In this document: positions 19,486-48,611 of the stretch, one piece after another
Numbering within the stretch: position 1 is the first letter of the stretch
Layout of the letters: every line of letters starts with the position of its first letter
DNA from: Fibrobacterota bacterium
GTDB lineage: Bacteria > Fibrobacterota > Fibrobacteria > UBA11236
Assembly: GCA_947482115.1 (NCBI GenBank)
Contig: CANKII010000001.1
Location: 310,001 to 374,000 of the forward strand
Direction of reading: 5' to 3'
Length of the DNA stretch: 64,000 nucleotides
Position numbers and translations under genes: made by a program
Notes under the pieces: generated by a model
Seen by the model: the letters and a program-made list of their open reading frames with translations, nothing else
What the model was told of the DNA's origin: nothing
The model's database searches: none

Positions 19486-20817
19486 TTAGAGCATCAACCA
19501 GACGGGATGCTCCATCGCTGATTTCAATGTCGAAAGGAATTGCGCGGCCTGCGCACCGTCGACCACGCGATGATCCGCACTGATAGTCACTTTCATGACA
19601 TCGCGCTGACGCGGCGTTCCGGTGGCATCGAGATACACTTCCGATTGGATTCCACCGACGGCCAAAATGGCAGCCTGAGGAGGATTGATAATGGCCGTGA
19701 ATTGATCCACACCATACATGCCCAAGTTGGAAACCGTGAAGGTGCCTCCCACATATTCTTCGGGAGCCAACTTGCCGGACTTGGCCTTGGCCACCAACGC
19801 CTTAATCTCCTGTGAAATGGCCATGAGGCTTTTCCGGTCGGCATCCTTGACAATGGGCGTGATAAGCCCCCCATCCAGCGATACGGCCACGCACACGTCG
19901 ATGTTGCCGTTCTGGCGGATGAAATCCCCATAGAAGGATGAGTTGACTGCGGGATGACGGCGCAGGGCGAAAGCGACAGCCTTCACGACGATGTCGTTCA
20001 CGGAAACCTTGTAACCGGGACCGCGATGCAAATCGCTGCGCAGCTTGGCCAATGCATCAACTTCGATCTTTTGGGTGACGAAAAAGACGGGTGTATTCTG
20101 TGAAGACTCGAGCAAACGCTTACCGATGGTTTTACGCATCATGGAAAGCGGAATGTCCTGCGTGGGCTGTGCCACGGCAGCAGCACCGAACAAAGCTTGT
20201 GTAGCTTCTGAACCCGCATTGGCAGCGCTGGGCTTGTAACCTTCCACATCTTTGCGGATGATGCGTCCCTGCGGACCGCTGCCTTGAACGGATCCAAGCG
20301 GCACGCCGCTATCGGCGGCAATTTTTCGGGCGAGGGGAGAGGTCTTGATGCGAGAGGATTCCGCTGGCTGAGCGGAGCCGAAGGCAGCAACCGGTTGCGG
20401 CACGGCGGCGGCCACAGGCGATGGTATCGGTGCAGGGGCCGCCGTAGGGGCGACAACACCGGTCCCTGAGCCTGCTTGCGGTGAGCCTGTCGAATCCGTC
20501 GAAGGGCCCGGTGTTGCGGATACCACGGCCGCACTTTTTTCCAACGCCTTCTTCAAATACTCGGTAATGTCTTCATCTTTTTCATCAGACAATACGGCGA
20601 TCAATTGATTCACCTTGGCTTGTGAACCATCCGGCACCACGATCTTGCGGAGGTAGCCCTCGTCCATACTCTCATAGTCCACCGTGGTCTTGTCGGTTTC
20701 CACGCTGCACAGCATGATTCCCTGCTTAATCAGATCGCCCTCTTTCACCAGCCATTTGGTGAGAACGCCTTCTTCCATGGTGGGACTCAAGCTTGGCATC
20801 AGGATGCTGGTTGGCAT
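19486..20817 (-). CDS. pdhC: Dihydrolipoamide acetyltransferase (E2) of pyruvate dehydrogenase
   Basis: 443-residue E2 core enzyme that transfers acetyl groups to CoA. One lipoyl domain (about 1-80) carries the modified lysine in ETDKTTVDYE. An Ala/Pro-rich linker (about 95-160) leads to the peripheral-subunit-binding domain (SPLARKIAADSGVPLGSVQG, about 160-195), followed by the catalytic domain with the active-site motif DHRVVDGAQAAQFL near the end. The ATG at 20817 starts the lipoyl domain MPTSILMPSLSPTMEEG and has AGAAAGG upstream; a start 12 codons earlier is less likely. Close to E1 beta (57 bp). Confidence 0.95.
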   Translation of the reverse strand: MPTSILMPSLSPTMEEGVLTKWLVKEGDLIKQGIMLCSVETDKTTVDYESMDEGYLRKIVVPDGSQAKVNQLIAVLSDEKDEDITEYLKKALEKSAAVVSATPGPSTDSTGSPQAGSGTGVVAPTAAPAPIPSPVAAAVPQPVAAFGSAQPAESSRIKTSPLARKIAADSGVPLGSVQGSGPQGRIIRKDVEGYKPSAANAGSEATQALFGAAAVAQPTQDIPLSMMRKTIGKRLLESSQNTPVFFVTQKIEVDALAKLRSDLHRGPGYKVSVNDIVVKAVAFALRRHPAVNSSFYGDFIRQNGNIDVCVAVSLDGGLITPIVKDADRKSLMAISQEIKALVAKAKSGKLAPEEYVGGTFTVSNLGMYGVDQFTAIINPPQAAILAVGGIQSEVYLDATGTPRQRDVMKVTISADHRVVDGAQAAQFLSTLKSAMEHPVWLML

Positions 20818-20874
20818 TGTTGGCCTTTCTTCGAGACCGTCGGGGCGTAGCATGCTACACCCCGACGGATGACA

Positions 20875-41760: not shown

Positions 41761-41803
41761 GGCGGTTGTAGGGGCGCGATTCAATCACGCCCCTACAACC
41801 GCC
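41761..41803. repeat. REP-like palindrome, 16-bp perfect stem
   Basis: GGCGGTTGTAGGGGCG (41761-41776) and its exact complement CGCCCCTACAACCGCC (41788-41803) flank an 11-nt loop. It lies 17 bp upstream of the hemB start and reaches into the 3' end of the HIT gene, encoding its last six residues (RAVVGA) and its stop. The core TAGGGGCG...CGCCCCTA is shared with the palindrome at 48202-48253. Confidence 0.85.
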
Positions 41804-42180
41804 CGGATTTTTTGACCCAGTTCAATCAACTCTTCGCGGCTTGCAGGTTTGGCCTTGCTGAAGCTCAAATCACCCTCCTGCTGAATGGGAACGAGGTGCA
41901 AATGGGCATGAGGAACTTCAAAGCCCGCCACCATCAAGCCGATTCGCTGACAGGGAACAACTTGAATCAAAGCTTTGGAAATGCGTTGAGCGAAGGGCAA
42001 CATGCCTTCAAGATAAGAGCTTTCCAAATCGAAGAGATTATCCACTTCGACTTTGGGGACGACTAAAGTATGGCCGGGGGAAATGGGACGAATATCCAGA
42101 AAAGCGAAGAAGCGATCGTTTTCAAGGATTTTTTCGCAGGGAATTTCTCCCTGAATGATGCGGGTAAAAATCGAGGCCAT
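41785..42180 (-). CDS. HIT-family nucleotide-binding protein
   Basis: 131-residue histidine-triad hydrolase. The triad HAHLHLVP (about residues 90-97) and the N-terminal signature SIFTRIIQGEIPCEKILEND place it in the Hint/HinT branch, which cleaves phosphoramidates and adenylated nucleotides. The region GHTLVVPKVEVDNLFDL is typical. Its final six residues and stop codon are supplied by a palindromic repeat, so the C-terminus probably differs from relatives. It follows rpmG closely (31 bp) on the same strand. Confidence 0.92.
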   Translation of the reverse strand: MASIFTRIIQGEIPCEKILENDRFFAFLDIRPISPGHTLVVPKVEVDNLFDLESSYLEGMLPFAQRISKALIQVVPCQRIGLMVAGFEVPHAHLHLVPIQQEGDLSFSKAKPASREELIELGQKIRAVVGA

Positions 42181-47403: not shown

Positions 47404-47453
47404 GCATGGAACATAATTTTTACCATGTACGTTTGCAGGATTGCTCCAGACTT

Positions 47454-48611
47454 ATGCGAATTCTCATCAGCCCCCTGGATTGGGGATTGGGTCATGCGAC
47501 CCGGGACATTCCGATTATCCGGGCCTTGCGCCGCGCGGGTCATGAAGTCATTATCTTCGCCAGCGGTGCGGGGCGCCGTTTATTGCAGGGGGAGTTTCCG
47601 GATTTGGAGATAGGCGAACTGCCTTCCTATTCGATGAGTTACTCCAAATCGAAAGCCTTGCTGCCCTTTTGGTTACTGGCTCAACTCCCTGTTTTCATCT
47701 TCTCCGTCTTTCGTGAACGCCGCTTGGTCAATGACCTTGTCCGTGACCACCGTATTGATTTGATCATTTCAGATGGCCGGTATGGATTAAAAACTGCGCT
47801 CGTACCCTGTATCTTCATCACCCACCAACTTTGCATTCTGCCACCCGGCCCAAACTGGCTTCGCTCGCTTTTATCCGCTCCCATCCAGTCCTTAAACCGT
47901 TTTGCGTTGCGGGATTTCAAGAAAATTTGGGTTCCGGATTTTCCGGGAGCCGTGAATCTTTCCGGCAGACTGGGTCATCCAAATCCTGCATGGCCCCCTG
48001 TTCAGTACATCTTTCCACTATGCCGTTTTCGGGAAAACTCGTTGCCTTGGAATCGTCCAGCCGAAATCGATGCCAAGGATTTGAAAATTGATTTGTTGGC
48101 CTTGGTTAGCGGACCAGAACCCCAGCGCACCGTGTTTGAGAAAATGTTAACCGAAGCATTAAAAAAGATGTCCGGGACACGTGCGTTAGTGCGTGGATTG
48201 CCGGGGCAACCCGTAGGGGCGCATCGCGATGCGCCCCTACGGGAATTGCCCCGACAAATGGTTCGTGAAAATGAATTGAACGTATTCGATCACCTGTCTG
48301 GAAATGATTTGACCCAATTCCTGGCCGCAGCGGATAAAGTCGTATGTCGTTCAGGTTATACCTCGGTCATGGAACTTGCCGGGTTAGGAAAACGCAACAT
48401 TCTGCTTATTCCCACACCCGGTCAACCCGAACAGGAATATCTGGGAAAGCATTTGCAAAAAATGGGATTGGCCGAATGTCAGGAACAGGAAGCCTTTAGT
48501 ATTGAGATAGGATTGCACACCGCTGCCGAACTTCCGGGTTTTGCCCTGTTGTTTCAAAATTCCGAAACCCAAACCAACACTTCGGATTTGGTGAAGTCTT
48601 TCGTTTTATAA
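47454..48611 (+). CDS. MurG-like (GT-B) glycosyltransferase family protein
   Basis: 385-residue GT-B-type protein. It begins RILISPLDWGLGHATRDIPI with the glycine-rich nucleotide-sugar loop and ends with KVVCRSGYTSVMELAGLGK and PTPGQPEQEYLGKHL, the C-terminal GT28-type donor site. Many FCB genomes encode such proteins; substrate unknown. ATG 47454 is chosen because it starts the first strand. An in-frame palindromic repeat at 48202-48253 encodes PGQPVGAHRDAPLRELPR, probably an insertion in a surface loop between the two domains' core elements. Confidence 0.78.
   Translation: MRILISPLDWGLGHATRDIPIIRALRRAGHEVIIFASGAGRRLLQGEFPDLEIGELPSYSMSYSKSKALLPFWLLAQLPVFIFSVFRERRLVNDLVRDHRIDLIISDGRYGLKTALVPCIFITHQLCILPPGPNWLRSLLSAPIQSLNRFALRDFKKIWVPDFPGAVNLSGRLGHPNPAWPPVQYIFPLCRFRENSLPWNRPAEIDAKDLKIDLLALVSGPEPQRTVFEKMLTEALKKMSGTRALVRGLPGQPVGAHRDAPLRELPRQMVRENELNVFDHLSGNDLTQFLAAADKVVCRSGYTSVMELAGLGKRNILLIPTPGQPEQEYLGKHLQKMGLAECQEQEAFSIEIGLHTAAELPGFALLFQNSETQTNTSDLVKSFVL
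48202..48253. repeat. Palindromic repeat inside a coding sequence
   Basis: A perfect 34-bp palindrome (48210-48243; half-site CCCGTAGGGGCGCATCG) is extended by matching arms CGGGGCAA (48202-48209) and TTGCCCCG (48246-48253). The core GTAGGGGCG...CGCCCCTAC is shared with the intergenic element at 41761-41803. The reading frame of the glycosyltransferase is kept through it. Confidence 0.85.

Follow-up and report, generated by a model that had tools for sequence, protein, structure and literature searches.

A double-foot GTAG REP within a glycosyltransferase gene of a Fibrobacterota bacterium belongs to a dispersed family with host-derived inverted arms

REP sequences with a foot at each end have been described by Quentin et al. 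(2018; PMC6006769) for TnpAREP transposases of subclass 2.4. In that article, a double-foot REP consists of a GT[AG]G 5′ foot and its reverse complement as 3′ foot, and REPs also occur in frame inside tnpAREP. These embedded copies are additional to flanking ones, and flanking copies do not belong to the double-foot definition given there. TnpAREP cleaves REPs in vitro, and the insertion reaction is poorly understood (PMC8266576). The GTAG-tagged REPs of Di Nocera et al. (2013; PMC3733652) share with the repeats reported here a GTAG foot, a small hairpin and a position near gene 3′ ends; they often donate a TAG stop codon, and some copies are intragenic and in frame. In contrast to our repeats, in which GTAG is paired with CTAC, their GTAG is unpaired and present at one end only. 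Moreover, some of these families lie in consensus palindromes, whereas in our repeats every copy has arms of its own, as described below. Rickettsia palindromic elements (RPE) resemble our case as palindromic repeats in frame in coding sequences, but RPE-4 and RPE-6 are classed as CGTC repeats, for which no RAYT link is described, and RPE-1 is longer (PMC3733652). Perfect inverted repeats in protein-coding genes are also reported for Nematomorpha mitochondria; as far as described, they are much longer (up to 284 bp), have no shared core and come with no transposase (PMC6649704).

The window analyzed here is a stretch of 64,000 nucleotides from a Fibrobacterota bacterium. Inspection of its sequence showed that nucleotides 48210–48243 form a 34-bp palindrome without mismatch (CCCGTAGGGGCGCATCGCGATGCGCCCCTACGGG). 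The palindrome is composed of a 28-bp double-foot REP core at 48213–48240 (GTAGGGGC GCATCG CGATGC GCCCCTAC, two feet around a 6+6 inner stem), which has approx. 60 related copies in the genome, and an outer arm of 3 bp per side. Further outside, the forward-strand octamer at 48202–48209 (CGGGGCAA) is the exact reverse complement of that at 48246–48253 (TTGCCCCG). Two unpaired A residues (48244–48245, forward strand) separate the palindrome from the right outer arm. In length, flanking arms and frame the palindrome is exactly as the initial annotation had described it. Perfect palindromes of 34 bp are expected by chance approx. 4e-6 times per 64 kb. An Rfam scan of the window detected a tmRNA and a tRNA only, with no match at the palindrome.

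The palindrome lies in frame in an open reading frame on the forward strand (47406–48611) encoding an MJ1255/MurG-like GT-B glycosyltransferase, in which the element accounts for residues 270–278 (VGAHRDAPL). Glycosyltransferase homology starts at the in-frame ATG at 47454. The first 16 residues (47406–47453) lack homology and have low pLDDT, and translation probably starts at this ATG (MRILISPLDWGLGHA). In an AlphaFold2 model (mean pLDDT 88), residues 272–279 were the sole internal segment with a pLDDT below 50; it connects two strands, and the insert is located there. Comparison with 29 homologues revealed that the segment between the strand ending in VRGLP and the strand LNVFDHL is unconserved and variable in length, with 16 to 33 residues within the family of the host protein and 9 to 11 in more distant families. 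The left outer arm provides the codons of the conserved P-G in VRGLPG and is therefore native host sequence. The right outer arm encodes non-conserved residues and, judged from the sequence, appears to be the left arm copied in inverted orientation.

A gap of about 17 residues had been predicted for an alignment of homologues at this position. The gap was not clean, as the loop varies in length and the orthologue of the sister genome G002 has an element of its own: in the same loop it contains GTAGGGGCGAACAGCCGTTCG followed by unrelated bases, which is a decayed element of another subtype typical of G002. None of the homologues had the same residues as our protein, which would have indicated native sequence. 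The family may thus have struck the locus in both lineages, or an ancestral element may have been replaced. In another genus (G006), the corresponding glycosyltransferase loop contains a tandem GSAGGAP repeat, which points to a general indel hot spot.

A second family copy (GTAGGGGCGCGATTCAATCACGCCCCTAC) is found at 41768–41796 of the window between a HIT-family and a hemB-like gene. Its left outer arm GGCGGTT (41761–41767) is complementary to AACCGCC at 41797–41803. The two elements belong to the same dispersed family, confirming the common core already noted for them. The 41.8-kb element supplies the last residues (VVGA) and the TGA stop codon of the HIT-family gene (41785–42180, reverse strand). 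Moreover, a degenerate palindrome (CCGTCGGGGCGTAGCA/TGCTACACCCCGACGG) at 20837–20868 resembles a decayed family member, and TAGGGGCG is also present at 20445.

In the 2.72-Mb genome, the pattern TAGGGGCG-N0-25-CGCCCCTA matched 41 copies and the pattern TAGGGGC-N2-32-GCCCCTA 62, compared with 0 for the reversed pattern as control; degenerate copies are under-counted, because only stretches around pattern-matched copies were taken from the genome. The 54 copies collected are built from GTAGGGGC, a variable inner stem and GCCCCTAC and measure 27 to 29 bp. Their inner stems comprise 34 distinct cores, which are nearly always paired: each inner position of the 28-mers was paired in 79–100% of the copies, compared with 32–60% when partners were shuffled among copies. 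The most abundant subtype is GCGATT-N-AATCGC. Fifty-five copies were placed relative to genes, using heuristic gene calling with codon usage trained on the window. About 20 of them are inside ORFs, 20 lie across a gene end and 15 are intergenic. The claim that a repeat of this family occurs inside coding sequences is thereby borne out well beyond the glycosyltransferase. Host genes, named by inspection of the sequences, encode FadB-, Smc-, AroA-, QueG-, HrpB-, GlgE-, KdsB-, DprA-, UvrD- and GlyS-like proteins. Outside genes, most copies are located no more than tens of bp from the 3′ end of a gene. At no fewer than 16 loci (≥16) the TAG of the repeat is the stop codon of the neighboring gene, and at three loci it serves both convergent genes. 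The base 5′ of GTAG was T in 21, G in 19, C in 14 and A in only 1 of the 55 copies, possibly reflecting an insertion or cleavage preference. Partial second copies starting with TAGGGGCG were observed beside intact ones at two loci (L067, 1484–1525; L082, 1501–1543), as if repeats had inserted next to repeats. Residues PVGAGFNPAPTGG at the N-terminus of the AroA-like protein (L015) resemble a second, mutated element in that gene.

Four of the intragenic copies reside in RAYT-like ORFs of 180 to 193 codons with the motifs MPNHxH and WQRNY. These ORFs matched the NCBIfam model REP_Tyr_transpos (NF047646) with E-values of 1e-14 to 1e-18 but did not reach its curated cut-off of 80 bits, and they matched Pfam Y1_Tnp weakly (18.5–25.1 bits, cut-off 23). 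A genome-level search with PF01797 had given no match, missing all four and at first suggesting a genome without RAYT; this was disproved by the four divergent genes among the intragenic copies. Each RAYT gene carries a perfect GTAG..CTAC palindrome between HuH (residue 79–80) and the WQRNY region (136–152). The palindromes are in frame, but two alternative frames are used among the genes (VGA.. and GRG..); it is therefore the DNA that is shared and not the peptide. In one RAYT, WQRNY is replaced by WQRDF, which puts F at the position of the presumed catalytic Y; this protein may be inactive. None of the four RAYT genes in the genome belongs to the GCGATT-N-AATCGC subtype.

A genome scan with the four RAYTs identified relatives in Chloroflexi, Cyanobacteria, Acidobacteria, Desulfobacterota, Bacteroidota, Planctomycetota and others. 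A strong palindrome was present in the 230 nt after HuH in 38 of 73 relatives, compared with 2 of 73 for the 230-nt stretch upstream of it as control. GTAG..CTAC palindromes as in our genome were found at three cyanobacterial RAYT loci (L167, L179, L195). Cyanobacteria are also the source of the small dispersed repeats of Elhai et al. (2008), which are reportedly tiny and mobile-looking. Palindromes near a RAYT matched its embedded subtype, with a mean minimum distance of 0.11 compared with 4.25 in 5000 re-pairings. Among 126 genomes of the class Fibrobacteria, a RAYT was detected in 20, the repeat in 19 and both in 17. This co-occurrence was significant per genome when phylogeny is ignored (p = 4e-16) and per genus (p = 0.019).

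All these features place the repeat close to the double-foot REPs of TnpAREP subclass 2.4, which have the same feet and are scattered over many phyla (PMC6006769). The Fibrobacterota hairpin has GT[AG]G/C[TC]AC feet and multiple dispersed copies, the genome contains four RAYT/TnpAREP genes, and an in-frame REP between the HuH and Y motifs is present in all four and in RAYTs of many phyla. REPs flanking tnpAREP were not found in the approx. 1.2–1.5 kb up- and downstream of each of the four genes when up to one mismatch per foot was allowed. The likeness concerns hairpin and gene architecture. Two differences stand out against PMC6006769: the RAYT loci here have the internal copy alone, and the dispersed copies carry host-derived inverted arms of 3 to 11 bp. 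A term search of the available text of that article returned no mention of Fibrobacter. We assign the element, a perfect hairpin of 28 bp with GTAG/CTAC feet, to the non-autonomous double-foot GTAG REPs. The initial annotation was thus right in outline that a repeat has entered a gene, but the likeness to RPE that it had drawn does not hold. The family starts with GTAG, is tied to RAYT transposases, and with its GTAGGGGC..GCCCCTAC core lacks the CGTC tag of RPE-4 and RPE-6 (PMC3733652) and any sequence relation to them. A literature search for GTAGGGGC returned primers and unrelated papers only.

The outer arms, among them the 8-bp arms that the initial annotation had listed with the glycosyltransferase palindrome, do not belong to the repeat itself, since they differ at every copy. 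In 50 dispersed copies of our genome (G000), the bases outside GTAG and CTAC were complementary over 6.48 bp on average, and 44 of the 50 reached 4 bp or more. When the left flank of one copy was matched with the right flank of another, the mean was 0.54 bp, with a maximum of 1.1 in 2000 shuffles. At positions 1 to 8 the arms were paired in 100, 100, 96, 88, 78, 74, 54 and 32% of the copies, and at background level beyond. According to this profile, pairing within an arm is uninterrupted up to a break point, where the arm ends. They have no consensus and are unique to each copy even among copies with identical cores, and almost all copies are free of residual loop bases between arm and core. 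The native arm is the left one in the glycosyltransferase and the right one in HrpB, where the WP of WPTPP is conserved, so that copying would be possible in either direction.

The arms are restricted to certain lineages. In the sister genome G002 their mean length was 8.0 bp (16 copies, most with 8–10 bp), whereas it was 0.58 bp in the congener G003 (24 copies). G001 and most other genomes have no arms, and a few long ones occur in genus g11. Among dispersed copies from other phyla, 0 of 28 had arms of 4 bp or more. Furthermore, RAYT-embedded copies are arm-less in every genome, with 0–2 bp of pairing beyond the core (p = 7e-4 for our genome). In open-access text, we found no description of lineage-specific host-derived inverted arms.

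Insertion sites were compared with those of the congeners, which are approx. 55–70% identical in protein. The FadB-like, GlgE-like and L051 genes contain elements at corresponding sites in G002, HrpB of G002 has kept a GCCCCTAC remnant, and the QueG site is shared with G003. By inspection, our genome and G002 share about 5 of the 11 intragenic sites that could be compared. This is far above the expectation for random insertion, and the subtype found at these sites is specific to each genome. From the sequences, either recurrent insertion or in-place replacement could account for the shared sites. At intragenic sites, the net change in protein length is between about −4 and +12 residues. SbcD (TIGR00619) was not detected in the four congeners of genus g1 (G000–G003), while 13 of 14 control genomes were positive. 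Loss of SbcD was discarded as the cause of the arms, because the protein is absent genus-wide, including the arm-less G003.

Taken as a whole, we consider it probable that a double-foot GTAG REP was inserted by a RAYT as a single-stranded hairpin and that its host arms arose, most simply, by fold-back copying. Insertion as single-stranded hairpin DNA was most likely carried out by a RAYT/TnpAREP-type HuH transposase of the subclass 2.4 type. Several points weigh against this: all four RAYT loci lack the nearby flanking copies of usual REPtrons, one RAYT has F at the presumed catalytic Y, PF01797 alone missed the genes at genome level, and the most abundant subtype has no RAYT of its own in the genome. 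HuH cleavage would join a host 3′ end to the 5′ end of the hairpin, whose 3′ end would then be recessed beside single-stranded host DNA and could be extended by a few nucleotides on the host strand, yielding an inverted copy before joining downstream. In this species and its sister, approx. 3–11 bp of adjoining host DNA would in this way have been copied to the other side, either during insertion or when the hairpin was replicated afterwards. The glycosyltransferase copy probably survives because its insertion kept the reading frame and fell into a surface loop that is disordered and variable in length.

Two tentative readings concern the step at which the arms arise. Insertion in the G000/G002 lineage may create an inverted target duplication, in which the hairpin 3′ end primes approx. 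6–9 nt of synthesis on the host strand. HuH cleavage is known to leave a 3′-OH able to prime synthesis (PMC8266576). Fold-back copying by itself does not explain why arms are present in only two of four congeners. It is equally conceivable, though short of an even chance, that the arms grew after insertion, when quasi-palindrome template switching during replication overwrote one flank and nothing was copied at insertion itself. Template switching is known to homogenize the arms of inverted repeats (PMC7202029, PMC8604942). Consistent with such a process, the elements of one and the same GlgE loop have different outer arms in G000 (GCGGCGG/CCGCCGC) and G002 (CCCCGGTT/AACCGGGG), and the small length changes in host proteins indicate that flanking sequence is frequently substituted and not simply lengthened. 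On the other hand, copies with identical cores, which are presumably young, are already armed, and the RAYT-embedded copies of the same genomes are not. The missing SbcD hairpin nuclease would also favor template switching, but G003 lacks it as well and has no arms, and its absence therefore does not separate this process from fold-back copying at insertion.

Targeting of pre-existing host palindromes, both arms being older than the insertion, is unlikely. GTAG-23 and some other REPs do sit inside small consensus palindromes (PMC3733652), and host palindromes with arms of at least 6 bp exist, with approx. 720 expected in the genome. However, perfect loopless host palindromes with arms of ≥4, ≥5, ≥6, ≥7, ≥8 and ≥9 bp numbered 810, 216, 60, 20, 5 and 2, a roughly fourfold drop per bp. 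Choosing among them cannot give the peak at 6–9 bp seen for insertion arms, which show no such decay, nor does it fit the arms of 9–10 bp in most G002 copies. The near lack of residual loop bases and of any arm consensus also argues against older palindromes.

Slightly less credible still are immobile host regulatory hairpins, such as bidirectional terminators or mRNA 3′-end structures, maintained by selection and compensatory mutation. Such a role would agree with the location of most non-intragenic copies near gene 3′ ends, the TAG stop codons supplied at single and convergent genes, and inner stems that vary yet stay paired. REPs are, however, also described near gene ends (PMC3733652), where insertions may survive. 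Moreover, about 20 of the 55 copies are inside genes such as those for FadB-, Smc-, QueG-, KdsB-, HrpB- and GlyS-like proteins, where a terminator would be harmful, and identical cores have unrelated flanks in a family that tracks RAYT presence. A native glycosyltransferase sequence that is palindromic by accident would be in line with the length-variable loop and similar-sized loops in relatives, but the chance expectation for such a palindrome and the roughly 60-fold recurrence of the core against a control of 0 rule it out for practical purposes.

The kind of element, the repeat family and the transposase architecture are already known (PMC6006769); the lineage-specific host-derived inverted arms in G000 and G002 are a variant of which the open-access text searched gave no description. 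If the arms were made at insertion, dozens of natural insertions would each preserve a direct molecular footprint of this reaction. Their cause could then be traced by comparing RAYTs and repair genes among the four congeners, since one congener has the repeat but lacks the arms. For its hosts, the repeat is a recurrent donor of stop codons and loop peptides to proteins.
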